18,446 bases of DNA. Source: Paracoccaceae bacterium (lineage in GTDB: Bacteria > Pseudomonadota > Alphaproteobacteria > Rhodobacterales > Rhodobacteraceae). The first letter of the stretch is position 1; each line of letters begins with the position of its first letter. The translations under genes were made by a program, and so were the position numbers. The stretch is from NCBI GenBank assembly GCA_007128865.1, contig SKWP01000482.1, positions 1 to 18,446 on the forward strand, given 5' to 3'. Positions 1,008 to 14,762 of this stretch are shown here, piece after piece. Under the pieces are notes generated by a model. It made no database searches, was not told where the DNA came from, and saw only the letters and a program-made list of their open reading frames with translations.

Positions 1008-2384
1008 ATGCAGATCGGCACCAGAAGCGGCCTCGAACTGCGCCAGACCCGGCGGCTGGCCATGACCGGGGATTTGCGCCGCGCCATCGGGTTTTTGCGC
1101 CTCGACAACGCCGAGCTTGGCGCAGAGCTGGCAATGGTGGCGCGCCGCAACCCGGCGCTGGTGCTTGCCGTGGCGAGCGATCCGACCGCAACGCGGGCCA
1201 GGGGGCCGGCGCATTCGCGGCAGGGGGTCGGGATTGGCGGCGGTACTGCGCAGGCCGAGGCGATGCCGGCTGCGGGCAGCAGCGGGCTCGAGGCCCATGC
1301 TGCCGGTCAGGTGGCCCTCATCCTGCACGATCCGGAGCCGCGCCGCATCGGCCTGATGCTGGCCGAAGCTCTTGAGCCTAGCGGCTGGCTGGGTATGCCG
1401 CTGGGCGATATCGCCCGTCGTATCGGCTGCGATGTCGCCAAGGTCGAGACGGTGCTGGTCAGACTCCAGAACGGCGTCGAGCCGGCCGGGTTGTTCGCGC
1501 GCAATCTTGCCGAATGCCTGCGCATCCAGGCCGCAGACCGGGGGATGCTGGATGCGCCGATGGAAGCGCTGTTGTGCCATCTCGATCTGCTTGCACGAGG
1601 CCGCCTTGCCGCGCTGGCCGAGCTTTGCGGCGTTTCCGAAGCCGATGTCGCGGCACTGGCCGGCCGGTTGCGCCGGCTCGATCCGAAGCCCGGAGCGGCT
1701 TTTGGTGCCGGCCCTGCACCGGTTCGCCCGCCGGACGTGATTGTCACCGCGGCCGAGGGCGGGGGATGGCATGTGGACATGAATGACGCGACAACGCCGC
1801 GGGTTTCCGTGCAGGCGCCCGGTGACGCAACGCCGGACACTGCGGCCGAGCGCGAGGCGGCGCTGGCCGAGGCGCAACGCCTTTGCCGGGCGGTGGCGCG
1901 GCGCAATGCAACCGTGCTTGCGGTGGTTTCGGCCGCAGTTGCCCTTCAGGATGGTTTCCTGCGCCATGGTGCCGCAGCGATCCGGCCGCTGACCAGGGCA
2001 GCGGTTGCGGAACGCGCAGGCGTACACGAGACGACCGTGTGCCGGGTCGCTGCGGGGCTTCTCGTGTCTGCGCCGCTGGGCACGTATCCGCTGCGGGATT
2101 TCTTCGGGGCATCGCTGGCCGCTACCGGTGACGGTGCCCCGGTGGCGGCGGGTGCGGTGCGCCACCGGATTGCCGCGCTGATCCGGGAAGAGTCGGGAGT
2201 ACGGCCGCTGAGCGACGCGGCGCTGAGCGCGCGCCTGCACGAGGAAGGGATCGTGGTGGCGCGTCGGACGGTGGCCAAATACCGCGAATCCCTCGGTCTG
2301 GCGTCGGCGTCCGTAAGGCGCGCGCGTGCGCGGCTGAAGACCGCAGCGGCACGGGTCGGGCAACGCGTGAATCCTTCACGCTGA
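1008..2384 (+). CDS. rpoN: RNA polymerase sigma-54 factor, divergent RpoN paralogue
   Basis: Sigma-54 directs core RNA polymerase to -24/-12 promoters and needs an AAA+ activator. The 458-residue protein has region I at about 8-50 (LELRQTRRLAMT at 9-20), a low-complexity acidic/Gly-Ala linker at about 55-105, the core-binding region at about 110-230, a helix-turn-helix near 333-352 (AERAGVHETTVCR) and a perfect RpoN box, ARRTVAKYRE, at 418-427, which reads the -24 element. It is divergent: region I has few of the usual glutamines, and the normally conserved segment after the helix-turn-helix (KY..TP.G...LK.FF) reads LLVSAPLGTYPLRDFF. This suggests a specialised paralogue rather than the housekeeping copy. 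ATG 1008 is chosen because GGGCGGGG lies 8-16 nt upstream and the protein then begins at region I; ATG 984 and codons back to 858 are also open. Its stop codon lies inside the enhancer-like repeat cluster. A weak TTGCGG-N17-TAATCT at 939-967 could be its promoter. Confidence 0.9.
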   Translation: MQIGTRSGLELRQTRRLAMTGDLRRAIGFLRLDNAELGAELAMVARRNPALVLAVASDPTATRARGPAHSRQGVGIGGGTAQAEAMPAAGSSGLEAHAAGQVALILHDPEPRRIGLMLAEALEPSGWLGMPLGDIARRIGCDVAKVETVLVRLQNGVEPAGLFARNLAECLRIQAADRGMLDAPMEALLCHLDLLARGRLAALAELCGVSEADVAALAGRLRRLDPKPGAAFGAGPAPVRPPDVIVTAAEGGGWHVDMNDATTPRVSVQAPGDATPDTAAEREAALAEAQRLCRAVARRNATVLAVVSAAVALQDGFLRHGAAAIRPLTRAAVAERAGVHETTVCRVAAGLLVSAPLGTYPLRDFFGASLAATGDGAPVAAGAVRHRIAALIREESGVRPLSDAALSARLHEEGIVVARRTVAKYRESLGLASASVRRARARLKTAAARVGQRVNPSR

Positions 2385-2392
2385 TGCGTGAA
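2365..2392. promoter_or_regulatory. Alternating GCGTGAA/TTCACGC repeats, candidate activator (enhancer) sites
   Basis: Three 7-nt half-sites alternate in orientation: GCGTGAA at 2365-2371, TTCACGC at 2375-2381 and GCGTGAA at 2386-2392. They make two overlapping perfect inverted repeats (7-3-7 and 7-4-7). The two direct copies are 21 bp apart, two helical turns. The cluster covers the rpoN stop codon (2382-2384) and lies about 130-160 bp upstream of the start predicted from the -24/-12 promoter, the usual range for binding sites of sigma-54 activators. The natural candidate ligand is the activator encoded at 9142-10173. It could also fold as an RNA hairpin at the end of the rpoN transcript, but no U-run follows, so a terminator is less likely. 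Pattern is directly seen; binding is inferred. Confidence 0.6.
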
Positions 2393-2463
2393 TATCGCGC
2401 TGCACTGCATCGATCGCAATGGGCGTCACCGCCGCGGATTCATCAAACAAGGCGTAAAGCAGG

Positions 2464-2517
2464 GTGAATGCCGGGCTACTTGCAGAAGGCGCAACATGGC
2501 ATGAAATCTGCATTCAC
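2464..2517. repeat. 8-bp inverted repeat GTGAATGC/GCATTCAC around the -24/-12 promoter
   Basis: GTGAATGC at 2464-2471 and its exact complement GCATTCAC at 2510-2517 bracket the sigma-54 promoter; the right arm overlaps the -12 element and the bases just after it. The hexamer GTGAAT is also the core of two of the upstream half-sites (2367-2372, 2388-2393), so the same protein might bind at the promoter as well. It may be a repression or autoregulation site, or coincidence. Confidence 0.35.
2497..2512 (+). promoter_or_regulatory. Sigma-54 (-24/-12) promoter for the peptide-type ABC operon
   Basis: The sequence TGGCATGAAATCTGCA matches the consensus TGGCACG-N4-TTGCA at 10 of 12 fixed positions, including the essential GG (2498-2499) and GC (2510-2511) with exactly 10 bp between them. 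Transcription would begin near 2523, about 77 nt before the binding-protein ATG. It lies in the 215-nt intergenic gap between an rpoN gene and an operon that ends with a sigma-54 activator gene, which strongly supports the call. Confidence 0.8.
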
Positions 2518-2523
2518 TGGGGT

Positions 2524-2576
2524 GTGAACGCTCGCTGCGTTCGCCCAGGAATGGCCGCGACGCCGGCGTCGGGCCA
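2524..2576 (+). promoter_or_regulatory. Structured mRNA leader with two adjacent hairpins
   Basis: Beginning at the predicted transcription start, GTGAACGC (2524-2531) pairs with GCGTTCGC (2537-2544) around a 5-nt loop, with one G-U pair. Seven nt later TGGCC (2552-2556), a bulged G (2557) and CGACG (2558-2562) pair with CGTCG (2567-2571), G and C bases following, and A2576 around a CCGG tetraloop. The ribosome-binding site AGGGAG (2585-2590) is left just outside the second stem. No U-tract follows, so these are not intrinsic terminators. They could protect the mRNA 5' end or modulate translation. Confidence 0.45.
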
Positions 2577-2599
2577 CAAGCAACAGGGAGATTCGGACC

Positions 2600-4138
2600 A
2601 TGAAAATGCTTCACCGGACCCTCGTGGCATCAGCGCTTGTGCTGGCCACGGCGGCGCCCGCGGTGCAGGCGCAGACGCTGATTGTCGGCTTCACCCGTGA
2701 TGCCGATACGCTCGATCCTGCAAACCATCGCAACCGCGAAACCGAAACGATCATCCGCAACATCCACGACGGGGTCGTGACCCGTTCGTCGGACATGATG
2801 ATTCACCCCGAGATCGCCGAGAGCTTCACCCAGGTCTCGCCCACGGTCTATGATTTCGTCATCCGCGCGGGCGTGAAGTTTCACGACGGCACCGAGATGA
2901 CCATTGACGATGTCAAGTTCACCTTCGACCGGCTGCTGAACGAGGGCGGCATGGGCGATGGCCAGACCAGCCCGCGCGGCGCGCTGCTCGGACCGGTCGA
3001 ATCGGTCGAGATTGTCGAAGGCAACACGTTGCGCTTCACCCTGTCCGAGCCCTGGCCGCTGCTGCCGGCGATGCTGCCGCATCAGCAGATCGTTTCCAAA
3101 GCGCATGTCGAGGCAGTGGGCTCAACAGCCCTTGCGACCGATCCTGTCGGTACCGGGCCTTTCCGGCTGGCCGAATGGCGGCGTGGCGAGTCGGTGGTGA
3201 TGGAACGTTTCGACGACTATTACGGTGGCGCGCCCGGAATTCCCGAAGCCGGCCCTGCCTGTGTGGAGCGCGTGATCTTCCAGGTGATCCCGGAATCCGC
3301 CTCGCGGGTGGCGGCGTTGCTTTCGGGCGATGTCCACATCATCAACGAACTTCCGCCCTTCTCGATGAATCAGGTTGCCAACAGCCCCAATACCGAGGTG
3401 ATGACGGTCAACGGCACCCGCAGCTTCTTCCTGGCGATGAACAACCAGGGCGACATCTTTGACGATGTGCGGGTCCGGCACGCCGTCGCCCATGCCATCG
3501 ACCGTGACCTGATCATCGACCGCATCCTGAACGGAACCGCCTCGCGGATCGACGGAATCCTGTCGCCCGATGCCTTCGGCAAGAACCATGACCTGCCCGC
3601 ATACGAGTTCGACCCCGAGCGGTCGCGCGCGCTGCTGGCCGAAGCCGGATACCCGGACGGCATTTCGGTGACGCTCGACACCACCGGGCCGATGCGCGAC
3701 ATTGCCGAGGCGATTGCGGCGCTTCTGACCAACGCCGGCATCAATACCCAGGTGCAGGTTGGCGAAGGCACGCTGATGAACCAGAAATGGCAGACCCGCG
3801 GCGGTCCGAAGGAAGGCGACATGTTCCTCAGCTCCTGGGGCAACAGCACGCTCGATCCCTTCGACATCTTCGGCCCGACGCATGGCACCGACGCCCGCGG
3901 CAACTCGGCTGGCTATTCCAACCCCGAACTCGACGCGCTGCTTGACGCCGCCGCGGTCGAGTTGGACCGCGCACGCCGCGGCGAGATGTACCGCGAGGCC
4001 GAGGCGATGGCGAGCGCCGACCTGCCCTATGTCTACCTGTGGGTGCCGCAGGACATCTATGGCGTGTCGACCCGGCTGAGCAACTGGTCTCCCAGCCCCG
4101 ACAGCAGGATCAACCTGCACCGCGCCTGTCTGGACTGA
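2600..4138 (+). CDS. Peptide-type ABC transporter substrate-binding protein (SBP family 5)
   Basis: Periplasmic receptor of 512 residues that delivers ligand to the permease pair encoded next. A Sec signal peptide is clear: basic start (MKMLHR), hydrophobic core at 8-19 and a probable cleavage after AVQA (residue 24); there is no lipobox cysteine. The mature part begins with TLIVGFTRDADTLDPA, the usual opening of DppA/OppA-like proteins, and has the family signatures near FHDGTEMTIDDVKFTFDR and DPVGTGPFRL. ATG 2600 has AGGGAG nine nt upstream. It is the first gene of a compact seven-gene operon and has the only large upstream gap, which holds the sigma-54 promoter. Family members bind peptides, opines, nickel, haem or oligosaccharides; the ligand here is unknown. 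Sigma-54 control and the C45 hydrolase gene downstream make a nitrogen-containing amide or peptide plausible, as inference only. Confidence 0.93.
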   Translation: MKMLHRTLVASALVLATAAPAVQAQTLIVGFTRDADTLDPANHRNRETETIIRNIHDGVVTRSSDMMIHPEIAESFTQVSPTVYDFVIRAGVKFHDGTEMTIDDVKFTFDRLLNEGGMGDGQTSPRGALLGPVESVEIVEGNTLRFTLSEPWPLLPAMLPHQQIVSKAHVEAVGSTALATDPVGTGPFRLAEWRRGESVVMERFDDYYGGAPGIPEAGPACVERVIFQVIPESASRVAALLSGDVHIINELPPFSMNQVANSPNTEVMTVNGTRSFFLAMNNQGDIFDDVRVRHAVAHAIDRDLIIDRILNGTASRIDGILSPDAFGKNHDLPAYEFDPERSRALLAEAGYPDGISVTLDTTGPMRDIAEAIAALLTNAGINTQVQVGEGTLMNQKWQTRGGPKEGDMFLSSWGNSTLDPFDIFGPTHGTDARGNSAGYSNPELDALLDAAAVELDRARRGEMYREAEAMASADLPYVYLWVPQDIYGVSTRLSNWSPSPDSRINLHRACLD

Positions 4139-4160
4139 CCACCGGACCGGGAGCACGGGC

Positions 4161-5174
4161 ATGAGCGTTACACGGCTGATCGAACGACTGCTGCAGCTTG
4201 TGCCCGTTCTGCTTGGCGTGAGCGTCATCGTCTTCGTGATGATGGCGCTGACGCCGGGCGATCCGGTCGAGATCATGATCGGGGATCAGCTGGTGACCCC
4301 CGAACAGGAAGAACGCATGCGCCGCGATCTGGGCCTCGACCGGCCCATGGTGGAGCGGTATTTCGTTTTCCTCGGCAACGCGCTGCAGTTCGATTTCGGA
4401 ACCAGCTTCTATCATCGCCGGCCGGTTTCCGACGTGATCATCGAACGTCTTCCGGCCACCATCGAACTGACCCTGATGGCGATGATCATCGCGCTTGTGA
4501 CCGCGATCCCGCTGGGCGTTCTTGCAGCGGTAAAGAAGAACTCGATCTTCGACCGCATCGCCACGGTGGGCTCGCTTCTTGGCGTCTCGCTGCCGGGGTT
4601 CTGGTTCGGTATCCTGCTGCTGATGCTGTTTGCGGTGCAGCTCAATCTGCTGCCGGTGGCCGGGCGGGTGGCCTATGAGCATGGCGTCACGGTGCGGCCC
4701 ATCACCCATTTCCTGCTGATCGATTCGCTAATCCAGGGGCAATTCGCGGCCTTCCGCAACGCCCTGGCGCATATCATCCTGCCCGCCATCACGCTTGGCC
4801 TGCCGATGACGGCAATCCTCATGCGTGTGACACGAACCGCCATGCTGGAGGTCCTGCGCGCCGATTACATCACCTTCGCCGAGGCCAAGGGGCTGAACCG
4901 CCAGCGCATCCTGTGGCGGCATGCGCTGAAGAATGCGCTGATCCCCACCGTGACCGTGGCGGCGATGGAAACCGGCTCGCTTCTGGGCGGCAACATGATC
5001 GTGGAAACGGTGTTCGGCTGGCCGGGGCTTGGCCGGCTGGTGGTGGAAAGCATCTTCGTGCGCAACTATCCGCTCGTCCAGGCGGCAGTCCTGCTTTACG
5101 CGGTGACCTATGTGTTGCTGAACTTCCTTGCCGATATCCTGTATACCGTCCTCAACCCGCGGGTGAAGCTGTGA
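4161..5174 (+). CDS. ABC transporter permease, DppB/OppB type
   Basis: Inner-membrane channel subunit of 337 residues. It has an N-terminal membrane helix (about 10-31), a periplasmic segment with GDPVEIMIG and LGLDRPM as in DppB-like proteins, then five further helices between about 100 and 330. The EAA coupling loop that contacts the ATPases is at about 239-262 (FAEAKGLNRQRILWRHALKN). The C-terminus ends LADILYTVLNPRVKL, close to the usual DPR ending of this family. ATG 4161 has GGGAG seven nt upstream and lies 22 nt after the binding-protein gene. Its stop overlaps the next start by 4 nt (GTGA), which points to translational coupling. It should pair with the DppC-type permease that follows. 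Family call is very secure; the transported compound is not known. Confidence 0.93.
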   Translation: MSVTRLIERLLQLVPVLLGVSVIVFVMMALTPGDPVEIMIGDQLVTPEQEERMRRDLGLDRPMVERYFVFLGNALQFDFGTSFYHRRPVSDVIIERLPATIELTLMAMIIALVTAIPLGVLAAVKKNSIFDRIATVGSLLGVSLPGFWFGILLLMLFAVQLNLLPVAGRVAYEHGVTVRPITHFLLIDSLIQGQFAAFRNALAHIILPAITLGLPMTAILMRVTRTAMLEVLRADYITFAEAKGLNRQRILWRHALKNALIPTVTVAAMETGSLLGGNMIVETVFGWPGLGRLVVESIFVRNYPLVQAAVLLYAVTYVLLNFLADILYTVLNPRVKL

Positions 5175-6061
5175 GCTTTGCGTCCGACGCCCGCGCACCG
5201 GCGGATTCGCTCTTCCGTCGCAACCTGCGTGCCTTTGCGGCAAACCGGCTGGCCTTTGGCAGCGCAATCGTGGTGCTGATCTTCGTTGTCATGGCGGTCT
5301 TTGCGCCGTGGATCGCGCCGCATGATCCGGCTGCCACCGATCTGTTCCGCCGCCTGCAGCCGCCGGCATGGATGGAGGGCGGTGACTGGGCTTTCCCGCT
5401 GGGTTGCGATGCGCTGGGCCGCGATATCCTGTCGCGCATCATCTATGGCGCGCGAATCTCGATCTTCATCGGTGTCGCGGTGATCCTTGTGGCGACCGTG
5501 GTCGGCATTCTCGCCGGGCTCGCCGCGGGCTATCTTCGGGGCTGGGTTGATATCGTGATCTCGCGCATCGTCGATATCCTGCTGGGCTTTCCCTATCTGA
5601 TCTTCGCGATCGGTCTGATGGCGATGATGGGGCCGGGGCTGGCCAACATCATCCTGGTGATGGCCTACAAGGAATGGGTCATTCCCTGCCGGGTGGTGCG
5701 GGGCGAGACGCTGGCGGTGCGCGAGCTGGAATATGTCGAGGCCGCACGCGCCGTGGGAGCATCCGACCGCCACATCATGCTGCGCGAGATCCTGCCGAAC
5801 ATCCTGTCGCCGGTGCTGGTTGTGGCCACCATCCGCATGGCCGATGTCATCATCCTCGAGGCAGCCCTGTCCTTCCTCGGTCTCGGGGTGCAGCCGCCCA
5901 CCGCCTCCTGGGGGGCGATGGTGGCAGACGGCCGCGCCTTCATCCTCGAAAGCTGGTGGGTTTCAACCTTTCCCGGTGTGGCGATCCTGCTGCTGGTGCT
6001 GGCGATCAACGTCGCCAGCCAGGGGCTGCGCGATGCCTTTGACCCGCGGTTCAGCGAATGA
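5171..6061 (+). CDS. ABC transporter permease, DppC/OppC type
   Basis: Second channel subunit, 296 residues. Features in order: a short cytoplasmic tail with FRRNLRAFAANRLAF (15-29), the first helix at about 30-49, the conserved periplasmic motif PLGCDALGRDILSRIIYGARIS (77-98), helices through to about 283, and an EAA loop at about 190-213 (EAARAVGASDRHIMLREILPN). It ends GLRDAFDPRFSE, the standard DppC ending. The frame is open well upstream inside the preceding gene, but GTG 5171 is chosen because it overlaps the upstream stop as GTGA and gives the normal family length and N-terminus. The stop overlaps the following ATPase start (ATGA). It forms a heterodimer with the product of 4161-5174. 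Confidence 0.92.
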   Translation: MSFASDARAPADSLFRRNLRAFAANRLAFGSAIVVLIFVVMAVFAPWIAPHDPAATDLFRRLQPPAWMEGGDWAFPLGCDALGRDILSRIIYGARISIFIGVAVILVATVVGILAGLAAGYLRGWVDIVISRIVDILLGFPYLIFAIGLMAMMGPGLANIILVMAYKEWVIPCRVVRGETLAVRELEYVEAARAVGASDRHIMLREILPNILSPVLVVATIRMADVIILEAALSFLGLGVQPPTASWGAMVADGRAFILESWWVSTFPGVAILLLVLAINVASQGLRDAFDPRFSE

Positions 6062-7056
6062 GCAGGCCGCTGCTTCAGGTGCGCGGATTGCGCACGGTTT
6101 TCGACACCAGGGCGGGGCGCGTCTGTGCCGTCGATGGCGTGGACGTGACGGTGGAGCCGGGCGAATGCCTGGGCGTGGTTGGCGAATCCGGCTCGGGAAA
6201 GAGCGTGACCTTCGCCTCGGTGATGGGGCTTATCCGCCCGCCCGGCAGGATAGAGGCCGGCGAGATCCTTTTCGACGGGGTCGACCTGCGCCAGCTTTCG
6301 CGGCGCCAGATGCAGGCGGTGCGCGGCCGCGATATCGCCATGACAATGCAGGATGCGCTGACCGCGCTGAACCCGGCTCTGACCGTCGGCACCCAGATTG
6401 CCGAAATGCTGGAGGCCCATGACGATGAACTTCCGCGCGGCGGTCCGGCCCGTGCGCGGGCCATCCGTGCCCGCGCGGTCGAGATGCTGGGCCTTGTCGG
6501 CATCCCGTCGCCCGATGACCGGCTGAAGCAGTATCCGCATGAATTCTCGGGCGGGATGCGCCAACGCATCATGATCGCCATCGCGCTGGCATCCAAGCCG
6601 CGCCTGCTGATCGCCGACGAGCCCACAACCGCACTCGATGTCACCATCCAGGCACAGGTGCTGGAGCTGATCGACGATATTCGCGCGCGCCTTGGCATGT
6701 CGGTGGTGCTGATCACCCATGACCTGGGCGTGGTGGCGCAGCACTGCGACAGGGTGATCGTGATGTATGCCGGCCAGGTGGTGGAGGAGGGGCCGACGGC
6801 CGCCGTAATCGGCAGTCCGAGGCATCCCTATACCCGCGGCCTGCTGGCGTCGATTCCGCGGCCGGCGCTGCGCGGCCAGCCGATCCGCCCGATCGAGGGG
6901 CAGGTGCCCGAGCTGATCGATCTGCCGCCTCAATGCCGCTTTCACGCCCGCTGCCCCGAAGCCGGCCCCGACTGTCTGCGCCCGATCGAGATGCGCCGGG
7001 TCGGGCCCGGGCGGCAGGTCCGATGCATCCGGACCCCGGCGGAGGCGGGGCCATGA
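6058..7056 (+). CDS. ABC transporter ATPase, DppD/OppD type
   Basis: Cytoplasmic ATP-hydrolysing subunit, 332 residues, that powers import with the DppF-type partner. Motifs visible: Walker A GESGSGKS (42-49), Q-loop glutamine 98, signature SGGMRQR (164-170), Walker B LLIADE (183-188), D-loop ALD (192-194) and H-loop histidine 221. The C-terminal oligopeptide-transporter domain includes HPYTRGLL (256-263) and cysteines 293, 299, 306 and 323; an equivalent cluster in some Dpp/Opp ATPases binds iron-sulfur. The start overlaps the DppC stop by 4 nt and the end overlaps the next ATPase start, so expression is coupled. It looks intact and typical. Confidence 0.94.
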   Translation: MSRPLLQVRGLRTVFDTRAGRVCAVDGVDVTVEPGECLGVVGESGSGKSVTFASVMGLIRPPGRIEAGEILFDGVDLRQLSRRQMQAVRGRDIAMTMQDALTALNPALTVGTQIAEMLEAHDDELPRGGPARARAIRARAVEMLGLVGIPSPDDRLKQYPHEFSGGMRQRIMIAIALASKPRLLIADEPTTALDVTIQAQVLELIDDIRARLGMSVVLITHDLGVVAQHCDRVIVMYAGQVVEEGPTAAVIGSPRHPYTRGLLASIPRPALRGQPIRPIEGQVPELIDLPPQCRFHARCPEAGPDCLRPIEMRRVGPGRQVRCIRTPAEAGP

Positions 7057-8072
7057 CCGGGGCACTTCTTCAGGTCGAGGGGCTGAGCAAGACCTATGTC
7101 GGCCGCATGAGTCTTGTCGGGCGGCTCTTGGGTCGCAGGCCAACTGCGGTTCGGGCGGTGTCGGATGTATCGCTGGATATCGAACGCGGCGAGATCCTCG
7201 GTCTTATCGGTGAATCGGGCTGCGGCAAATCAACGCTTGGCCGGGCGATCCTTCGCCTTCACGAACCCAGCGCCGGGCGGGTGACATTTGACGGAACCGA
7301 CGTTACCGCCCTGTCGCCCGCGGCAATGACCGCCATGCGGCGGCGCATGCAGATCATCTTTCAGGATCCCTATGCCTCGCTCAATCCGCGCCGCACGGTG
7401 GCCGATATCGTCGGGCTTCCGTTGCAACTGCACGGGCTTGCTTCGGGGCGCGCCGCGCAGCGCGAGACGGTCGCGGAGATGCTGGAAAAGGTCGGGCTGA
7501 AGGCCGGGCAGATCGACCGCTATCCGCATCAGTTCTCGGGCGGGCAGCGCCAGCGCATCGGTATTGCAAGGGCGCTGATCTCGCGGCCCGACTTTGTGGT
7601 CTGTGATGAGCCGGTATCGGCGCTGGACGTGTCGATCCAGGCCCAGATCATCCAGCTTCTTCAGGATCTCAAGCGCGAGTTCGCTCTGACCTACCTGTTC
7701 ATCTCGCACGATATTTCGGTAATCGGCTATCTGGCCGACCGGGTTGCGGTGATGTACCTGGGCGAGATCGTGGAACAGGGGCCGGTGGAGGCCGTGCTTT
7801 CCAGGCCCCGCCACCCCTATACCCAAAGCCTGTTGTCGGCAGTGCCGAAGGTCGAGGCTACGGCCAGGACCGACCGGGTGCGGTTGACCGGCGATCTTCC
7901 GTCGCCGCTGAACCCGCCTTCGGGCTGCAAGTTTCACACCCGCTGCCCGCTTGCCATCGACATCTGCCGCAGATCGGCGCCGCACCGCGAAACGGTCGGG
8001 CAGGGCCATGATGCGGCGTGCCATCGGTTGCACGAGGGGCTTTCGATCACCGATGGGGGGTCTGCCGCATGA
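7053..8072 (+). CDS. ABC transporter ATPase, DppF/OppF type
   Basis: Second ATPase, 339 residues. Walker A GESGCGKS (53-60), Q-loop glutamine 104 in [10 protein letters not shown], signature SGGQRQR (162-168), Walker B FVVCDE (181-186), D-loop ALD (190-192) and H-loop histidine 219 are all present. The C-terminal domain has HPYTQSLL (254-261) and cysteines 292, 298, 305 and 323. Its SGGQRQR signature and [11 protein letters not shown] are typical of the F-type partner, so it complements the D-type subunit encoded just before. ATG 7053 overlaps the upstream stop (ATGA) and has GGAGG seven nt upstream; the longer open frame from 6933 is rejected. Its stop overlaps the C45 hydrolase start by 4 nt, tying that enzyme to the transporter. 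Confidence 0.94.
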
Positions 8073-9169
8073 CTGGTCTTTCCGTCGTCCCGGTTGCGCC
8101 GGAGCTGTTTTCGGGAAGCCCGCGGGAACGTGGACAGGCGCAGGCGGCCGGCGCGGATGATGCACTGTGTGCCCAGGTGCGGCGCGCCACGCTTGGCAGG
8201 GTGGAAACCGCCCGTGCCGAAGGTCTGATCGATGAACGCGCTCTGGCCTATGTCGCAGGTCAGCGGCGCTTTGCCGAGGATGCCGACCCCGAAGGCATGG
8301 CCGAGCTTGCGGGTATCGCCGAGGGCTTCGACCTGCCGCTGGACGAGCTTTTCCTGCACCTGCATCTGGGTACCCTGCGCGACCTTGCCGGCGGTGCCGT
8401 CACTGACGGTGACGGTTGCAGCGCCTGGGCCGTGGGCGGCGGGCCGGACGGGCCGCTGGTGGTCAAGAACCGCGATTTCGGCGGCGTCCATCTCGGGGTG
8501 CAGCGGGTCGCCTGGCATAGCGGGCCCGATATCGTGACCGGCGGCATGTTGTGCATCGGAAGTCTGGGCAGCCCCGGCGCCTATTCCAGCGGCATGAATG
8601 GCGCGGGGCTGGCACTGGCCGATACCCAGATCGGTGCCCGCACCCATGCAATCGGCTGGCTGCGGTATTTCGTCATGACCCGGGTGCTGGCCCGCTGCGC
8701 CACGGTGGCCGAGGCGCTGGACTGGCTGGGCTCGGTCGCTCATGCCGGCGGCGGGTCGCTGGTGCTTGCCGATGCCGCCGGCGCCTGCGCGGTGGTCGAA
8801 CTGGGCGCGCGGACGGTGGCCTTCGACCGCGGCGATCCTGTCTGGCGCACCAATCATTTCCTGTCATCGGCCTTGTCTGCCGATACTTTCCTGCGTGACG
8901 GCATGCGCATCGACGGCAATTCGGCGGCGCGCCTGCGCCTGCTGTCAGAAAGGCTGCCCGCCCGGGCCTGGGATGCCGTTGCTGCGGCGCGCCTGATGGC
9001 CACCCATTCGGGCGATGCGGGGGGGGCGCCGATCTGCCAGCATCCCGGGCCCGGCGAGGATACCGCGACCCTCTCCAGCGCCATCTTTGCAATCCGCGAT
9101 CGCTGCGTATACTTCCACCCTGGCAATCCCTGCGCGGGAGAATGGCAGGCCATTCGCATTCCGGCCTGA
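8069..9169 (+). CDS. C45-type autoproteolytic acyltransferase/hydrolase (Ntn fold)
   Basis: 366-residue protein resembling the peptidase C45 family, whose best known member is fungal isopenicillin N acyltransferase. These enzymes cut themselves before a cysteine, which becomes the N-terminal nucleophile that hydrolyses or transfers acyl groups on amides. Here the site is G116-C117 (DGDGCSAWAV), followed 19 residues later by aspartate 136 in the KNRDF motif (133-137); in the fungal enzyme the corresponding spacing is 18. Cleavage would give chains of about 116 and 250 residues. The segment before the cut (EGMAELAGIAEGFDLPLDELF, residues 75-95) is also family-like. No signal peptide is seen, so it probably acts in the cytoplasm on an imported amide, N-acyl amino acid or peptide-like compound (inference). 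ATG 8069 overlaps the ATPase stop (ATGA). Its 3' end overlaps the activator gene by up to 28 nt. Confidence 0.82.
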   Translation: MTGLSVVPVAPELFSGSPRERGQAQAAGADDALCAQVRRATLGRVETARAEGLIDERALAYVAGQRRFAEDADPEGMAELAGIAEGFDLPLDELFLHLHLGTLRDLAGGAVTDGDGCSAWAVGGGPDGPLVVKNRDFGGVHLGVQRVAWHSGPDIVTGGMLCIGSLGSPGAYSSGMNGAGLALADTQIGARTHAIGWLRYFVMTRVLARCATVAEALDWLGSVAHAGGGSLVLADAAGACAVVELGARTVAFDRGDPVWRTNHFLSSALSADTFLRDGMRIDGNSAARLRLLSERLPARAWDAVAAARLMATHSGDAGGAPICQHPGPGEDTATLSSAIFAIRDRCVYFHPGNPCAGEWQAIRIPA

Positions 9170-10173
9170 CCCGCGCCATGGCGGCGGGCGATGGCATGGC
9201 GGAATACGGGCGCCAGTTGGTGGGCGAATACCCCGGCATGCTGGCATTATGCCAGCTTGCCGAACGTGTGGCGCGCAGTGCGGCCCGAACCGTGCTGATC
9301 TACGGCGAGACCGGCACCGGCAAGGGTTTGCTGGCGCGCCTGATCCACAATGCCTCGGCACGGGCGGCAAAGCCGTTTCTGGACATCAACTGCGCCGCGA
9401 TTCCCGGCAGCCTGATGGAATCGGAATTCTTCGGCCACGAGAAGGGCGCCTTTACCGGCGCCTCGGAACGCAAGATCGGGCTTGTGGAGGCTGCAAACGG
9501 CGGCAGCGTGTTTCTTGACGAAATCCGCGAAATGGACCCGCATCTGCAGGCCAAGCTCCTCAGTCTGCTGGACACCCACCAGTTCCGGCGTGTGGGTGCG
9601 GTGCGGTCGACATCGGTCGATGTGCGGTTCATCGCCGCCACCAACAAGGTGCTTCTGTCCGAGGTCACGGCAGGGAACTTCCGCGAGGATCTCTATTACC
9701 GGCTGCAGGTGGTGGCGCTGAACATCCCGGCCCTGCGCGACCGGGGTGACGATGTTCTGGTGCTTGCACGGCATTTCATTGACGGCTTCAACGCCGCCTA
9801 CGGACGACGGATTCGGGGTCTTTCGCCCGAGACCGAGGCGATCTTCCGGAAGTATCCCTGGCCCGGGAACGTTCGCGAACTGGAAAACCTGCTGGAACGC
9901 ATCTTCATCCTTGAAGAGGACGAGGTGATCCTGCCGCGTCATCTGCCTGACAGGATTCTGCGTACGGTGCGTGCCGGGGCACGAACCGTCCCGCCGGCAC
10001 CGGACCCTAGGCACGTCCAGGAAGCGGGCTTTCACGAGGCGACGGCAGCATTCCAGCGATCGCTGATCGCACAGGCGCTGGATGCTGCGGCAGGAAACCA
10101 GCAGGCTGCTGCCCGCAAGCTCGGCATCAGCCGGCATGCACTGCGTCACCAGATGCAGAAGCTGGGGCTTTAG
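9142..10173 (+). CDS. Sigma-54-dependent transcriptional activator lacking a sensory domain (Fis family)
   Basis: AAA+ enhancer-binding protein that remodels the sigma-54 holoenzyme. In 343 residues: AAA+ domain at about 25-265 with Walker A GETGTGKG (55-62), the sigma-54-contacting loop GAFTGA (102-107), Walker B VFLDE (123-127), REDLYYRL (181-188) and WPGNVREL (240-247), then a linker and a Fis-type helix-turn-helix at about 317-340. The usual N-terminal receiver, GAF or PAS domain is absent, as in PspF, so the signal must act through another protein, ligand binding elsewhere, or expression level. The start is uncertain: ATG 9142 overlaps the C45 gene and has GGGAG only one nt away, while ATG 9178 and ATG 9196 lie after the C45 stop but have poor ribosome-binding sites; all keep the AAA+ domain. 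As last gene of the operon it may activate the promoter at 2497-2512, a positive loop. Confidence 0.92.
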   Translation: MAGHSHSGLTRAMAAGDGMAEYGRQLVGEYPGMLALCQLAERVARSAARTVLIYGETGTGKGLLARLIHNASARAAKPFLDINCAAIPGSLMESEFFGHEKGAFTGASERKIGLVEAANGGSVFLDEIREMDPHLQAKLLSLLDTHQFRRVGAVRSTSVDVRFIAATNKVLLSEVTAGNFREDLYYRLQVVALNIPALRDRGDDVLVLARHFIDGFNAAYGRRIRGLSPETEAIFRKYPWPGNVRELENLLERIFILEEDEVILPRHLPDRILRTVRAGARTVPPAPDPRHVQEAGFHEATAAFQRSLIAQALDAAAGNQQAAARKLGISRHALRHQMQKLGL

Positions 10174-10231: not shown

Positions 10232-11158
10232 TCAGCGCCCGCCTGTATCGCGGGTGCTGTGCTGGCGCGGGTCGATCACGTCGCGCAGCCCGTCGCCCAT
10301 CAGGTTGAGCCCCAGCACCGCGACCGCGATGACAAGGCCGGGGAAGACGGTGATCCACCAGGCCTCCTGAATATAGGTGCGCCCGTCGGCAATGATGTTG
10401 CCCAGCGACGGCGCCGGCGGAGGCGGGCCGACGCCCAGAAAGCTCAGGATCGCCTCGGCGATGATCGAGACCGCAAAGACAAAGGTCAGCTGCACGATCA
10501 GCGGCGACAGGGCGTTGGCCAGGATATAGCGAAACACGATCCGGCCGTGCCCGGCGCCGACGGCGCGCGCGGCCTCGATATACTGCATCTGCTGGACCAC
10601 GATCACGCTGGCGCGAACGATGCGCGCGGTGCGCGGCGTGAAGGTCACCGTCAGCGCGATGATGGCGTTGGTTTCCGACGGGCCCAGCGCAGCGGCCAGC
10701 GCGATGGCCAGCAGCACGCCGGGAAAGGCCATCAGCCCGTCAAGCCCGCGCATGATCAGCCCGTCAAGCCAGCTGATGTAACTGGCCAGCGTGCCGAGGA
10801 TGGTTCCCAGGATGCCGGTGAACAGCACCACGAAGATGCCGATACGCAGCGAAACCCGCGTGCCATGGATGATCCGGCTGAGGATATCGCGGCCGAAACC
10901 GTCGGTGCCCAGCCAGTGGTCGGCCGAAGGGGGCGCGAGGATGGCGCGAAAGTGGATCCGTGTGGGGCCGTAGGGCGCCAGCCAGTCGGCCAGCAGCGCG
11001 GTCATCACGAAGGCCAGCAGGATCACGAAACCGATCAGAAACGAAGGATGCCCCAACAGTCGCCGCAGGAAGACGATGCGCCGGCGCCGGCGGGCGCGGG
11101 CGACTTCCTGCGCCAGCGACAGGGGCGGCGCGGCCGTGGTCCCGGGCTCAGCGGTCAT
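10232..11158 (-). CDS. ABC transporter permease, DppC/OppC type (second system)
   Basis: 308-residue inner-membrane channel subunit of the second importer. An arginine-rich cytoplasmic segment (21-33) precedes the first helix at about 40-59; the periplasmic motif HWLGTDGFGRDILSRIIHGT lies at 81-100, the EAA loop at about 195-218 (EAARAVGAGHGRIVFRYILAN) and the DPR ending near 296-298. The chosen ATG at 11158 overlaps the end of the upstream permease gene by 11 nt, which is usual for coupled permeases; the open frame continues to 11218 but that extension has no family similarity. It is the last gene of a three-gene - strand unit, so the ATPases must come from the + strand genes at 14763-16771. 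Confidence 0.92.
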   Translation of the reverse strand: MTAEPGTTAAPPLSLAQEVARARRRRRIVFLRRLLGHPSFLIGFVILLAFVMTALLADWLAPYGPTRIHFRAILAPPSADHWLGTDGFGRDILSRIIHGTRVSLRIGIFVVLFTGILGTILGTLASYISWLDGLIMRGLDGLMAFPGVLLAIALAAALGPSETNAIIALTVTFTPRTARIVRASVIVVQQMQYIEAARAVGAGHGRIVFRYILANALSPLIVQLTFVFAVSIIAEAILSFLGVGPPPPAPSLGNIIADGRTYIQEAWWITVFPGLVIAVAVLGLNLMGDGLRDVIDPRQHSTRDTGGR

Positions 11159-12095
11159 TGCGCACCCTCGGGTCGAACCATGCATACAGCATGTCGACCA
11201 GGATGTTGACGAATACAAAGACGCAGGCGGTCACCAGCAACCCGCCCTGGATGATGGGAAAGTCACGCCGCTGGATCGCACCGATGATCAGCCGCCCCAC
11301 CCCGGGCAGCGAAAAGACGGTTTCGATCACCACCGCGCCCGAAAGCAGCACCCCGGTAATCACGCCGACAACGGTCACGATCGGGATCATGGCGTTGCGC
11401 AGGCCATGGCGAAAGATCACCGTGCGGCGGCGCATGCCCTTGGCGCGGGCGGTGCGGATGTAATCCTGGCTCAGCACGTCGAGCATGGCCGAGCGGGTCA
11501 TCCGCGCGATAACCCCCATCTGGGTGACCGCCAGGGTAAAGGCGGGCAGCGCCATGCTGCGCGCCCATCCGACCGGATCCTCGGCCAGCGGCACGAAGCC
11601 GCCGGTCGGCAGCCAGCCCAGCCAGACGCCGAACAGGATGATCAGCACCACCCCCAGCCAGAAATCCGGGATCGACAGGCCAATGAGCGCCGTCACCATG
11701 GCGCCCTGATCGACGGCGGTGTTGTGGCGCACTGCGGCCAGGATGCCCAGCAGCATGCCCATGGCCGTGGCCAGCGTCAGCGCCAGAGCGGTCAGCGAAA
11801 GCGTCACCGGAAGCCGTTCGAGAACCGCCTCGACGACCGGTCGGTTCAACAGATAGGAATAGCCCAGATCACCGCGGAACAGGTCGCCGTACCAGGCCAG
11901 CGCGCGCACCCAGATCGGCCGGTCCAGGCCCAGCCGTTCGCGGATGGCGGCCAGTTCGGCGGCGGTGGCGTCGGGACCGGCGATTTCGGCGGTTATGTCG
12001 CCGGGTACCAGCCACATGATCAGGAAGGTTACCAGCGTTACCACGAACAGCACCGGAATGGCACTGAGTAGGCGGCGGATCAGGAATGCTGTCAT
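11148..12095 (-). CDS. ABC transporter permease, DppB/OppB type (second system)
   Basis: 315-residue channel subunit. The first helix is at about 9-30, the DppB-like periplasmic part contains PGDITAEIAGPDAT (31-44) and LGLDRPIW (55-62), and the EAA loop is at about 216-238 (ARAKGMRRRTVIFRHGLRNAMIP). The C-terminus ends LVDMLYAWFDPRVRNDR, typical of the family. ATG 12095 is directly supported by the N-terminus MTAFLIRRLLSAIPVL; the ribosome-binding site is weak. It follows the binding-protein gene after an 84-nt gap with a GC-rich hairpin, and overlaps the DppC-type gene by 11 nt. It should form the channel with the product of 10232-11158. Confidence 0.93.
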   Translation of the reverse strand: MTAFLIRRLLSAIPVLFVVTLVTFLIMWLVPGDITAEIAGPDATAAELAAIRERLGLDRPIWVRALAWYGDLFRGDLGYSYLLNRPVVEAVLERLPVTLSLTALALTLATAMGMLLGILAAVRHNTAVDQGAMVTALIGLSIPDFWLGVVLIILFGVWLGWLPTGGFVPLAEDPVGWARSMALPAFTLAVTQMGVIARMTRSAMLDVLSQDYIRTARAKGMRRRTVIFRHGLRNAMIPIVTVVGVITGVLLSGAVVIETVFSLPGVGRLIIGAIQRRDFPIIQGGLLVTACVFVFVNILVDMLYAWFDPRVRNDR

Positions 12096-12135
12096 GTCGG
12101 GCGCCCGGGGTGTTGCAGGGCGGCAGCGGCAGGGA

Positions 12136-12156
12136 CGGCGCCGGTCACAGGCGCCG
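12136..12156 (-). promoter_or_regulatory. Intercistronic hairpin between binding-protein and permease genes
   Basis: CGGCGCC (12136-12142) and GGCGCCG (12150-12156) form a perfect 7-bp stem with a 7-nt loop inside the 84-nt gap between the binding-protein stop and the DppB-type start. No T-run follows in the direction of transcription. In ABC importer operons a hairpin at this place often keeps the binding-protein mRNA more abundant than that of the permeases; that role is inferred here. Confidence 0.4.
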
Positions 12157-12179
12157 CCCCGATCGCGCAGGGATCGCCG

Positions 12180-13757
12180 TCAGCCTTCGATCCAGACGTC
12201 ATGAACGCGCGGGAAACGGTAGGGCACGAACCCCTTCACATTGGCACGGCCGGCCTGCATCAGGCCCGAGTCGCCGATCTTGATCGAAGCGAAGATCTCG
12301 TACAGCCGCGCCTGGATCCGCTTGTGGGTTTCCTGGCGCTCGGCCACCGTCATGCCGGAAATGAGTTCCTGATAGAGCGCATCCAGTTCGGCATCGGGCA
12401 CCGCGAAATGGGGCCGTGCGGGCGATGCCAGCGTTGCGATCATGGCCACCGGCCCCTGAACCGGCTCGATACCCATCTGCAGGGTCCAGCCGTTCCAGCC
12501 TTCGTCCTGCAGCCGGATGTTCAGCGCCGTCGGCCAGTCGACCTGGTTGATCACCGCGTTGATGCCGACGTTCTGAAGCTGTTCGGCTATCACCACCGCG
12601 GCGCGCCCGTGCTGGGGAATGTTGCTGTCGGTCAGGATCGAGAACGGTTCGCCGTTGTAACCGGCCTCGGCCAGCAGCGCCCGCGCGCGCTCGGCGTCGG
12701 CAAGGTTGTAGTATTCCAGCCCGATGTCGCCGGCCCAGTAGGTCGTATCGGGATACTGCCAGCCGTGGTTGAGCTCATAGAGCCCTTCGGACGAGATCGC
12801 CATGATCTCTTCCATCTGCAGCGCGACCTGGATCGCCTCGCGGAACTTCACGTTGTCGGTGGGCGGTTCGGCAAGGTTGAGGTGAAAGGTCGTGAACGCC
12901 CAGGGCATGTTTTCATGCAGGACGATATCGGGGTTGGCGTCAAGCCGTCGTGCCGCGGGCATCGGGATCTGTTCGACCAGATGCACCTCGCCGGCTTCCA
13001 GTGCAGCAACCTGCGCGCCCGGCTCGGGGATGACGCGGAAGATCACCCGGTCGAGATAGGCGGTCTTGAAGCCTCCGAAGCCGTCCACACTGTCGTGGCG
13101 GGTATCGGCCGAATAATCGTCAAAGCGTTCGATCGTCACATGGCTGTCGGGGACATATTCGACGAACTTGTAGGGTCCGGTACCGACAAAGCTGTTGCGT
13201 CCGGCTTCGGTGTCGGCGTCCTCGACCGGGATGATCACCGCCGGCGCCCGCGGCGACGAGAAGGATTCGAGAAACGTCGGCGTCGGCCCCACCATGTGGA
13301 AGGTCACCTCGTAACGCCCGGTAATCTCGATATCGCGTACCGGGTCGAGCTTGTTGGCGGTGGCGCCGACCCGGCGGTAGCGTTCCATCGACGCCTTGAC
13401 GTCTTCCGAGGTCATCTCCTTGCCGTTGTGGAACAGTACCCCCTGCCGCAGGGTGAAGACATAGGTCTTCCCGTCGTCGGAAACCTCCACACCCTCGGCC
13501 AGGATGGGGATCGGGCTGATGTCCTCGCTCAGGCCATACAGCGTCTCGTAGATGTTCATGGTGATGTTGCGCGAGGCCTGCGACGAGGTCGCCATGCCAT
13601 CGAGGCTGGGCGGGTTCGACCCCTGGACAAAGACCAGTTCGCCGCCATGGACCTGCGCCATTGCGCCGGGCGCTGCCAGGCTGCCGGCCGCCAAGGCCAG
13701 AATTGCAGTCGTGCTGAGGGTCCGGAGGAGCCCGGCCTGCCGAAGTCTCGGTCTCAT
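12180..13757 (-). CDS. Peptide-type ABC transporter substrate-binding protein (second system)
   Basis: 525-residue periplasmic receptor of SBP family 5. A long Sec signal peptide is seen: basic MRPRLRQAGLLR, hydrophobic core about 17-29 and probable cleavage after AMA (residue 34). The mature part has GGELVFVQGSNPPSLDGMATSS and the family segments VLFHNGKEMTSEDVKASMERY and FVGTGPYKFVEY. The open frame continues upstream to 14009, but ATG 13757 is clearly right: AAGGGAGAAGGA lies a few nt before it and the signal peptide starts there. It is the first gene of the - strand unit and is divergent from the GntR-type regulator gene. Its sequence differs greatly from the binding protein at 2600-4138, so the two importers probably take different ligands; neither ligand can be named. 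Confidence 0.92.
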   Translation of the reverse strand: MRPRLRQAGLLRTLSTTAILALAAGSLAAPGAMAQVHGGELVFVQGSNPPSLDGMATSSQASRNITMNIYETLYGLSEDISPIPILAEGVEVSDDGKTYVFTLRQGVLFHNGKEMTSEDVKASMERYRRVGATANKLDPVRDIEITGRYEVTFHMVGPTPTFLESFSSPRAPAVIIPVEDADTEAGRNSFVGTGPYKFVEYVPDSHVTIERFDDYSADTRHDSVDGFGGFKTAYLDRVIFRVIPEPGAQVAALEAGEVHLVEQIPMPAARRLDANPDIVLHENMPWAFTTFHLNLAEPPTDNVKFREAIQVALQMEEIMAISSEGLYELNHGWQYPDTTYWAGDIGLEYYNLADAERARALLAEAGYNGEPFSILTDSNIPQHGRAAVVIAEQLQNVGINAVINQVDWPTALNIRLQDEGWNGWTLQMGIEPVQGPVAMIATLASPARPHFAVPDAELDALYQELISGMTVAERQETHKRIQARLYEIFASIKIGDSGLMQAGRANVKGFVPYRFPRVHDVWIEG

Positions 13758-13801
13758 GGTATGTCCTTCTCCCTTGTTGGTCTCGCGCCGGATGAGTTGA
13801 C

Positions 13802-13830
13802 TTGCCGCCGGCGAAGGCTGCGCATATACG
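13802..13830 (+). promoter_or_regulatory. Possible promoter of the GntR-type regulator gene
   Basis: TTGCCG (13802-13807), a 17-nt spacer and TATACG (13825-13830) give a plausible sigma-70-type promoter on the + strand. Transcription would start around 13837, just before the palindrome at 13848-13861, which would then be an autoregulatory operator. Confidence 0.35.
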
Positions 13831-13847
13831 GACACCCGTGCGGGAGT

Positions 13848-13861
13848 GTATAAGCGTATAC
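13848..13861. promoter_or_regulatory. GTATA-AGCG-TATAC palindrome, candidate GntR/FCD operator
   Basis: A perfect 5-4-5 inverted repeat in the 145-nt divergent region between the binding-protein gene and the regulator gene. It fits the GTAT-N6-ATAC form shared with 14714-14727 and is of the TGTATAC-like type common for FCD-subfamily GntR regulators. It lies next to the possible -10 region of the - strand promoter and just downstream of the possible regulator promoter, so binding could repress both directions. Confidence 0.55.
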
Positions 13862-13888
13862 GATGTCCGCCAGACCGCAGCATGTCAA
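13860..13888 (-). promoter_or_regulatory. Possible promoter of the second importer's binding-protein operon
   Basis: Read on the - strand, a perfect -35 hexamer TTGACA (13888-13883) is followed after 17-19 nt by weak -10 candidates (CATCGT to TCGTAT) that overlap the GTATA-AGCG-TATAC palindrome. The -35 is good and the -10 poor, so exact placement is uncertain. The leader would be about 90 nt. Confidence 0.4.
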
Positions 13889-13902
13889 GAAGTTTGCACA
13901 GC

Positions 13903-14640
13903 ATGACCACAAAGCCGCCCGAAAGCCCCCGCCCGCGCCTGTCGCGACTGGCACCGCTGGCCGCGCGGACGCTGGTCGACCAGGTGGTCGACGCCATCGT
14001 CGAGGCCACGGCCCGCGGTGTCTTCCTGCCCGGCGACCGGATCGTGGAGGCCGAAGTCGCGCGGGCGCTGAATGTCAGCCGGATACCGGTGCGCGAGGCG
14101 CTGCGGCTGCTGGAAAGCCAGTCGGTGGTGGTGAGCGAACGCTATCGCGGCATGCGGCTGATGAGCGTGGATATCGAGGGGCTGGAAAAGATCCTCAAGG
14201 TCAGGCTGGTGCTCGAACAACTCGCCGGCGCCGAGGCCATGCCGCGCATCCGCAAGGATCCCGGCGTGCTGGCCCCGCTCGAAGCCGTCCTTTCCGACAT
14301 GCATGATGCCGCGCGGGATGGCGATGATCTTCAGGTCGCGACGCTCGACACCGCCTTTCACCGCTGTCTGTGCGAACTGTCCGACAACGAGGCGCTGGTG
14401 CGCAGTTGGGAACCCCTGGCGCGCCAGCTGACGATCATCTTCGGCCTTGCCACCCGCCGCAAGACCCTGACCAGTATCGTCGCCGAACATGACGACGTGA
14501 TCGTGGCGCTGCGCAGCGGCGACCGCCCCACCTTCGACCGGCTCATGGAGGTTCATATCCTCGAATACACGCGGGCGGTGGATTACGAGGCGCTGGTCGC
14601 GCAGCTGCGCAGGATCGCCGAGGACCGCAAGGCAGGCTGA
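13903..14640 (+). CDS. GntR-family transcriptional regulator, FCD (FadR-C) subfamily
   Basis: 245-residue DNA-binding regulator. The N-terminal winged helix-turn-helix spans about 23-88, with the GntR signature LPGDRIVEAEVARALNVSRIPVREALRLLE (42-71). The all-helical FCD ligand domain follows (about 92-235) and keeps the metal/ligand residues: D149 and H153 in LDTAFHR, H196 in EHDDV and H218 in EVHI. FCD regulators usually respond to small carboxylic acids or related catabolites and repress neighbouring uptake genes. The frame is open from GTG 13846, with ATGs at 13882 and 13903; 13903 is preferred because AAGAAG lies about ten nt upstream and the palindrome then stays outside the gene. It sits between the two halves of the second importer, with candidate operators on both sides, so it is the likely local regulator. 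Confidence 0.9.
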   Translation: MTTKPPESPRPRLSRLAPLAARTLVDQVVDAIVEATARGVFLPGDRIVEAEVARALNVSRIPVREALRLLESQSVVVSERYRGMRLMSVDIEGLEKILKVRLVLEQLAGAEAMPRIRKDPGVLAPLEAVLSDMHDAARDGDDLQVATLDTAFHRCLCELSDNEALVRSWEPLARQLTIIFGLATRRKTLTSIVAEHDDVIVALRSGDRPTFDRLMEVHILEYTRAVDYEALVAQLRRIAEDRKAG

Positions 14641-14660
14641 GCCTTGCCAAACCTTTCGCC

Positions 14661-14675
14661 CCGGGCCGCGCCCGG
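14661..14675. other. GC-rich hairpin after the regulator gene
   Basis: CCGGGC (14661-14666) and GCCCGG (14670-14675) form a perfect 6-bp stem with a 3-nt loop, 20 nt after the regulator stop. No T-run follows, so termination is uncertain; it might only slow transcription into the ATPase genes. Confidence 0.25.
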
Positions 14676-14689
14676 CGCCGCCACCGGGG

Positions 14690-14727: not shown

Positions 14728-14762
14728 CAACGATCGACGCAGGGAACAGGTCAACAGCCACG

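Follow-up and report, generated by a model that had tools for sequence, protein, structure and literature searches.

Sigma-54 (RpoN) is usually a global factor. The locus described here raises the question of why an rpoN gene should stand directly in front of one operon, the last gene of which encodes a sigma-54 activator. It lies in an 18,446-nt stretch of contig SKWP01000482.1 (the window), from the 67% complete metagenome-assembled genome (MAG) of a Paracoccaceae bacterium. The module consists of rpoN, an enhancer, a candidate -24/-12 promoter (P1), a five-gene importer, a C45-type hydrolase gene and the activator gene (Table 1). Comparison of its sequence with those of relatives suggests that it probably acts as a dedicated single-locus sigma-54/activator switch with positive feedback.

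The window RpoN has the features that define a sigma-54 factor. The activator-interacting (PF00309, 26.6 bits), core-binding (PF04963, 129.9 bits) and DNA-binding (PF04552, 144.3 bits) domains all score over their cut-offs, the TIGR02395 cut-off is also exceeded, and the protein carries the RpoN box ARRTVAKYR and the recognition helix HETTVCR. The start of the gene is uncertain because the frame is already open upstream of the ATG used. The importer (2600-8072) has the composition of the Dpp/Opp type, with a family 5 solute-binding protein (SBP), two permeases and two oligo_HPY ATPases; by eye, the N-terminus of the SBP resembles a signal peptide. The next protein is a predicted C45 autoproteolytic acyltransferase/hydrolase, judged from its modelled fold and its cysteine nucleophile, Cys117 in a DGC motif, which is invariant in 8/8 aligned sequences. 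No signal peptide was seen in it by eye. The activator, the frame of which overlaps the C45 frame by 28 nt, contains Walker A GETGTGK and GAFTGA and is a sigma-54-dependent bacterial enhancer-binding protein (bEBP). It has no N-terminal regulatory domain, and in 58/58 loci with both genes the projected C45 end is followed by only 11-28 codons before the AAA+ domain starts. An earlier note, made from the sequence alone, had named the same sigma-54 gene, enhancer-like repeats, -24/-12 promoter, peptide-type importer, C45 hydrolase and GAFTGA activator, and these identifications held. It had also called rpoN divergent, which was wrong, as rpoN is on the + strand like the SBP gene and the rest.

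Relatives of the C45 gene were collected from two sources. A sample of 292 genomes of the order gave 10 matches, including the window's own, and the named GTDB collection gave 61 loci in at most 59 genomes. The named loci came from an alignment-based scan of genome contigs, and a single-sequence C45 scan yielded 0. In addition, 17 of the 394 genomes in a sample of the family carry the module. Loci reached by both routes, recognised from identical contig numbers and coordinates, were counted once (G245=L033, G279=L057, G335=L039, G412=L050, G532=L088, G584=L066, G581=L063). The neighbourhood search that the earlier note had called for showed that the order rpoN - SBP - two permeases - two ATPases - C45 - GAFTGA activator is conserved, strand included. 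Of the 61 named loci, 32, mostly from Rhodobacteraceae, carry rpoN immediately before the operon and in the same orientation (linked loci). Another 18 have the SBP start and no same-strand rpoN upstream (unlinked loci; L061 has a divergent rpoN, and only 0.5 kb is visible in L038), and 11 are cut before the SBP start. C45 and activator genes are adjacent in 58/61 loci, the exceptions being two contig edges and one truncated locus. Judged from record titles, the order importer-C45-activator occurs in Rhodobacteraceae, Rhizobiales and Betaproteobacteria. Four held-out loci (L283, L285, L286 and L288) repeated the order, P1 and the second promoter described below.

The P1 sequence TGGCATGAAATCTGCA is the sole mismatch-free match to TGGCRYRNNNNYTGCW in the window, where one-mismatch matches number 5 versus 3.9 expected. 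The site is weak when judged from the window alone, but it is backed by the relatives. Sites were scored against the sigma-54 consensus TGGCACG-N4-TTGCW as GG-N10-GC with a maximum of 12, and 4 of the 12 positions are fixed by the search itself. The enhancer dyad GCGTG-N5-CRCGC was scored with a maximum of 10 on the same upstream regions from which the motif was derived. Nowhere but at P1 does the window combine a promoter score of at least 9/12 with a dyad of at least 9/10 within 230 nt upstream. In relatives, a site of at least 9/12 was found 40-140 nt before the SBP start in 51/51 regions, and the best score was at least 11 in 35/51 regions of 330 nt versus 49/2000 random windows. A dyad of at least 9/10 was present in 79/93 upstream regions versus 139/3000 random windows; the 93 come from 104 regions, after exclusion of 11 regions of the second promoter at loci cut before the SBP. 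In the held-out check, dyads of at least 9 were found in 6/8 regions of the four loci. In linked relatives, most dyads precede P1 by 53-129 nt and the second promoter by 64-108 nt. With a consensus site and an enhancer upstream, P1 is a predicted sigma-54 promoter. The dyad is kept with and without linked rpoN, which argues that the enhancer belongs to the activator and probably predates the linkage. The importer-C45-activator operon with its enhancers is more widespread than the linkage and probably older as well.

The relatives have a second -24/-12 site (P2) about 95-330 nt past the activator gene and ahead of an AtuA-family gene. The AtuA gene is downstream of the activator in 57 of the 58 loci possessing the activator, and upstream in L086. 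P2 scores at least 9 in 53/57 loci, and the remaining four offer only 39-82 nt ahead of AtuA. The AtuA protein matches citramalate lyase subunit A (CmlA; 9erq, 9evf) over 440 residues (E 6.6e-72). DUF4387 follows AtuA in 5/5 loci checked, and genes for an acyl-CoA dehydrogenase and a CoA-transferase come after AtuA/DUF4387 in L033 and L057. In L056, a TRAP transporter, an amidase and a UbiD-like gene lie behind AtuA (15349-21043). The earlier note had proposed a single target pathway; the relatives have AtuA/DUF4387 as a probable second target operon, which could not be seen from the window. An AtuA gene elsewhere in the 67% complete window genome was considered as a P2 target and is not supported, as the closest relative is 48% identical and has no such site upstream.

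Sigma-54 DNA-binding domains were found in 70/292 genomes of the order. In the same sample, rpoN is present in 9/10 module genomes versus 61/282 others (Fisher p = 1.4e-5, a value which the linkage itself makes non-independent). The earlier note had suggested counting rpoN copies, and three were found in the window genome, on contigs C459 and C375 and in the module. By eye, the C459 copy adjoins LptB, Hpf and PtsN, and the C375 copy is in a flagellar locus. The neighbours of the module rpoN differ from the housekeeping order LptB-rpoN-Hpf-PtsN, a position that the C459 copy occupies. Copies were then counted in 32 linked genomes from three batches (9 + 19 + 4); G425, with a single rpoN on a contig other than that of its module, was excluded. 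In 13/32, no rpoN other than the linked copy was found: G087, G100, G245, G279, G291, the genomes of L036, L039, L041, L050, L066 and L088, and G381 and G456. This was verified through coordinate comparison in each genome. Completeness, where stated, is 94-100% (no value is given for the L036 and L041 genomes). Maritimibacter sp. HL-12, M. fusiformis and Thetidibacter halocola are examples of marine strains with one rpoN, and Thioclava marina is an example of a strain with several. The linkage in G291 spans a contig break, where L157 shows rpoN-SBP-permB.

In 9 of these 13 genomes (G087, G245, G291 and those of L036, L039, L041, L050, L066 and L088), the module activator is also the only exact GAFTGA among the surveyed PF00158 matches (E <= 1e-25; G381 and G456 are outside this genome-wide survey). 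Activator matches with no retrieved locus in G014, G062, G088 and G100 were left out of the reading, and the G297 match L237 has no GAFTGA-type motif in any frame. Genomes in which the sole rpoN found and the sole exact GAFTGA found lie beside their apparent targets offer a minimal natural system for asking why sigma-54 is kept or lost. The pattern TGGCAYRNNNNYTGCA was also searched genome-wide in 10 genomes and gave 0-11 matches each versus 0-3 for reversed-pattern controls. As G146, which has no rpoN, still has 7 matches, most of them may be chance; since variants such as that of G245 are missed in addition, the pattern gives no proof that a genome lacks sites other than P1 and P2. The window genome has 6 other matches, all in contigs C375 and C422, which are flagellar by eye.

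A natural counterpart to these genomes is G146 (L249), which is 100% complete and in which no sigma-54 domain was matched at E <= 1e-3. Its activator reads GSFAGA, not GAFTGA. The 20 kb read contains no -24/-12 site of at least 10 on its coding strand, and no dyad of at least 9 was found at the module genes. The contig ends about 0.3 kb before C45, which leaves the flank there out of view; the sequence ahead of SBP and of AtuA is visible. The gene order is permuted to C45-activator-AtuA-SBP-B-C-D-F, with importer, C45, activator and AtuA all kept. G146 is the only such case among the 17 module genomes of the family sample, and the other 16 module activators, 15 with GAFTGA and one with GSFTGA, are in genomes with rpoN. 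G146 is thus a natural knock-out, in which the sigma-54-specific features appear to have been lost together and the enzymes retained. The co-occurrence of rpoN and activator, which the earlier note had wished to see examined, is supported, and the conserved neighbourhood, the copy numbers and this coupled loss together favour the dedicated sigma/activator pair that it had proposed.

The same genome bears on another idea, in which sigma-70 polymerase is the partner of the activator and the -24/-12 sites have become relics. NtrC of Rhodobacter works with sigma-70 polymerase. G146 keeps its activator without rpoN, and many other activators of these genomes read GAFPGA, as this idea would have it. 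Against it, the only module activator of the family sample without the threonine is that of G146, all those with GAFTGA or GSFTGA are in genomes that have rpoN, and the promoter sites are positionally conserved. We regard a sigma-70-dependent activator as very improbable, and continue with the dedicated sigma-54 pair.

In a tree of rpoN genes (the L032 rpoN fragment excluded), the housekeeping copies, together with two other rows, are split from the specialised ones at 100/98. P1 and P2 of the same locus agree around -12 in the 30 linked loci that have both (102 agreements versus 74 expected, 0/3000 shuffles), and the agreement persists with one locus per rpoN clade (8 clades drawn by hand from the tree). 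The spacer bases of the 30 loci showed no P1-P2 agreement. Base -11 is A in 32/33 linked P1 (L086 has T) and 30/30 linked P2, versus 2/18 unlinked P1 and 8/12 unlinked P2.

An exploratory relation was also seen between the -15 base and the recognition helix. H-ETT goes with C, H-EST with T, and H-P/V/R/Q-ST mostly with G. For P1, 10/11 same-motif lineage pairs agree (22/20000 shuffles; the 13 lineages were drawn by hand, with L041 counted with the P-type clade). For P2, ETT loci have C in 7/7, EST loci T in 2/5 and P/R/V loci G in 13/15, and one of the two P/R/V misses, L069, may be a wrongly chosen site. Held-out P1 sites followed the relation in 6/7 cases; these include L089, which closely resembles training rows, and L288, with the new residue Q. 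The helix did not stand out when RpoN columns were ranked by mutual information. The window genome fits the relation, with HETT and TCTGCA for the module and HEST and CTTGCA for the flagellar locus; CTTGCA is found at 6/6 pattern matches in the flagellar contigs C375 (L177) and C422 (L245), where the pattern permitted only C or T. The C375 flagellar locus carries its own RpoN plus a GAFTGA activator. We tentatively propose, at somewhat less than even confidence, that in some Rhodobacteraceae the whole sigma-54 system has been reduced to one locus (one sigma factor, one activator and two promoters of adjacent operons), with a private sigma factor whose own -12 specificity can be read as a relation between helix residue and base. 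Promoter pairs that co-vary in this way provide natural variants with which -12 recognition by sigma-54 could be tested directly.

Several points weigh against a dedicated switch, and some of them favour a linkage without specificity, in which the local RpoN is an ordinary paralogue, any cellular RpoN (such as those of C459 and C375) can serve P1, and only the importer-activator operon is conserved. The same operon, upstream activating sequence (UAS) and -24/-12 sites are present in the 18 unlinked loci, and in a count of 34 genomes the 13 that had no same-strand linked rpoN each have exactly one rpoN (13/13). P1 and P2 also agree in the 12 unlinked loci that have both (30 versus 23, 2/5000), so the co-variation does not need a private sigma factor. 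Another rpoN is present in 19/32 linked genomes, and in the window genome the two further copies might serve P1, so that cross-talk is possible there. Other points concern the evidence on the module itself. The module rpoN rows require 2 label changes in the tree, which is compatible with a single origin or with more than one. The -11 difference may stem from one event in one clade. The helix-base relation, exploratory as it is, was noticed post hoc, is poor for EST-class P2 and missed 1/7 held-out P1. In the 32 regions upstream of rpoN, neither sigma-54 promoters nor dyads exceeded the control; autoregulation was thus rejected, and rpoN itself gives no sign of sigma-54 control. In G279, which has only the module rpoN, an extra GSFTGA activator means that the sigma factor is probably not exclusive to the module. 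In Thioclava atlantica (L248/L089; G100), where the module is decaying, rpoN and the importer are retained despite a C45 gene cut short, and neither the module activator nor AtuA was found. P2 and AtuA are not beside the module of the window, and the only AtuA relative of the window genome, mentioned above, comes without such sites.

A linkage without specificity is nevertheless unlikely in our view, since the module RpoN is split from the side of the tree that holds the housekeeping clade and two other rows, the -12 elements of P1 and P2 co-vary by lineage, -11 is A in 62/63 linked promoters, and no other rpoN was found in 13/32 genomes. A dedicated sigma factor is preferred to an ordinary paralogue.

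Dedication could also be a by-product of portability. Sigma-54 is rare in the order, so a dependent operon would spread horizontally only with its own sigma factor. The low frequency of sigma-54 (70/292) and the patchy distribution of the module (17/394) point in this direction, and Aquamicrobium defluvii and a MAG of Hoeflea, neither of them in the family, also carry linked copies. However, the Hoeflea MAG may contain a binning error, and the Aquamicrobium branch is long. The genome of Paenochrobactrum gallinarii yielded a single rpoN, which sits divergent beside the same operon (L061 1132-2451, - strand). No LptB, Hpf or PtsN was seen adjacent to it on a contig that starts 1.1 kb beyond, and the gene groups with housekeeping rows (84/54). 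This is a possible second, independent rpoN-operon linkage, and it would suggest that linkage has arisen repeatedly. Portability is a real though lesser possibility, and it is compatible with, not opposed to, the dedicated switch.

From the gene order, conservation, motif co-variation, copy numbers and coupled loss observed, we infer binding, activation, feedback, signal and substrate as follows. The local RpoN would be made from a promoter of another type and would guide RNA polymerase to P1, where the RpoN polymerase would wait, in relatives also at P2. The activator would bind the GCGTG-N5-CRCGC dyads upstream and open the complex via its GAFTGA loop. Firing of P1 would give importer, C45 hydrolase and more activator. 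With the activator as the final gene of the P1 operon, this loop would reinforce itself, a positive feedback that is read from gene order only. With no sigma-54 site above control, the sigma gene would lie outside the loop. In nearly all relatives, the activator would also switch on P2 and the citramalate-lyase-like AtuA/DUF4387 operon. As the activator lacks a sensor domain and sigma-54 does not seem to control rpoN, the signal may enter via rpoN expression, an inhibitor or a basal promoter. In evolution, a specialised RpoN paralogue may have been placed upstream of the operon in Rhodobacteraceae, after which RpoN and promoters would have diverged together. The module could show how such divergence proceeds and how a sensorless activator is controlled.

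The chemistry can be proposed only tentatively. The best structural match of the C45 model is isopenicillin N acyltransferase, followed by N-acylethanolamine amidase and acid ceramidase. These matches suggest that an amide is probably cleaved inside the cell. An acylated (amide) compound would be taken up and cleaved in the cytoplasm, and the released hydroxy-acid would then be split; judging from the AtuA/DUF4387 pair, the products may include a citramalate-like acid. This route of amide cleavage to a citramalate-like acid is conceivable, and we hold it with more doubt than belief.

Table 1. Predicted elements of the sigma-54 module, in window coordinates.
Feature	Position	Strand	Basis or remark
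rpoN, dedicated sigma-54 factor candidate	1008..2384	+	458 aa from ATG at 1008; open reading frame opens at 858
Enhancer (UAS) half-sites GCGTG 2365, CACGC 2377, GCGTG 2386	2365..2400	+	dyad conserved in relatives
Best dyad GCGTGAATATCGCGC	2386-2400	+	starts 111 nt upstream of the -24 element
P1, candidate -24/-12 sigma-54 promoter TGGCATGAAATCTGCA	2497..2512	+	motif match and conservation
SBP, family 5 extracellular solute-binding protein	2600..4138	+	PF00496; PDB relatives
Inner-membrane permease B, DppB/OppB type	4161..5174	+	PF00528 + PF19300
Inner-membrane permease C, DppC/OppC type	5171..6061	+	PF00528 + PF12911
ABC ATPase D	6058..7056	+	PF00005 + PF08352
ABC ATPase F	7053..8072	+	PF00005 + PF08352
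C45-type N-terminal nucleophile (Ntn) amidohydrolase/acyltransferase	8069..9169	+	NF040521 148.5 bits (cut-off 85)
bEBP, PspF-like activator	9142..10173	+	AAA+ with GAFTGA, Fis-type helix-turn-helix (HTH); PF00158 216 bits + HTH_8

Other genes flank the module. A TauE/SafE-type permease gene lies upstream of rpoN at 45-848, and none of the 61 module loci has a listed TauE match. Downstream, a second Dpp/Opp-type importer (10232-16768) is convergent with the sigma-54 operon. Its permease and SBP genes occupy the - strand from 10232 to about 13910; the + strand holds a gene for a GntR-type regulator (13900-14640) and, at 14763-16768, the genes for two ATPases. An enolase-superfamily dehydratase-like gene and the C-terminal part of an MlrC protein follow on the - strand (16744-18434). 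The enolase-like and MlrC genes beside the second importer are probably a separate catabolic locus.

Literature searches found no paper on this module (subscription papers were mostly outside their reach). As far as these searches show, the pathway, the compact two-operon layout, the genomes with nothing else of sigma-54 found and the coupled drift of sigma factor and promoters are new. Single parts have known counterparts. PspF of the enterobacterial psp operon has no N-terminal sensory domain, is encoded by a separate divergent gene and has PspA as inhibitor. The module activator is like PspF in consisting of AAA+ plus HTH only, and PspF structures match its residues 5-254 or 19-254. Unlike PspF, it is encoded inside its operon and has no known inhibitor, though no search for PspA was made. 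The C45 protein is 18% identical to acyl-CoA:isopenicillin N acyltransferase (2x1c, 2x1d); the window protein is bacterial and importer-linked. The module AtuA of the relatives and citramalate lyase subunit A have their family in common, although in the window the AtuA operon is not beside the module.

The closest known systems are those of Cereibacter (Rhodobacter) sphaeroides. Its specialised RpoN proteins are reported to be RpoN1 with NifA (nif), RpoN2 with FleQ-FleT (fla1) and RpoN3 with AprX (xrpA) (PMC11999139, PMC7277832), and base -11 is reported as a discriminator between RpoN1 and RpoN2 (PMC11999139). The four rpoN of G094 (possibly C. sphaeroides) fall outside the module rpoN in the tree. 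In contrast to the C. sphaeroides systems, the target of the module is one uptake/hydrolase operon with a sensorless activator as its last gene, and no other rpoN was found in 13/32 module genomes. C. sphaeroides likewise has several RpoN, each studied one with its own activator, and its rpoN2 is within the target locus fla1, as the module rpoN adjoins its target. Comparative evidence supports, at the level of sequence, a probable dedicated RpoN/bEBP pair of the kind described in C. sphaeroides.

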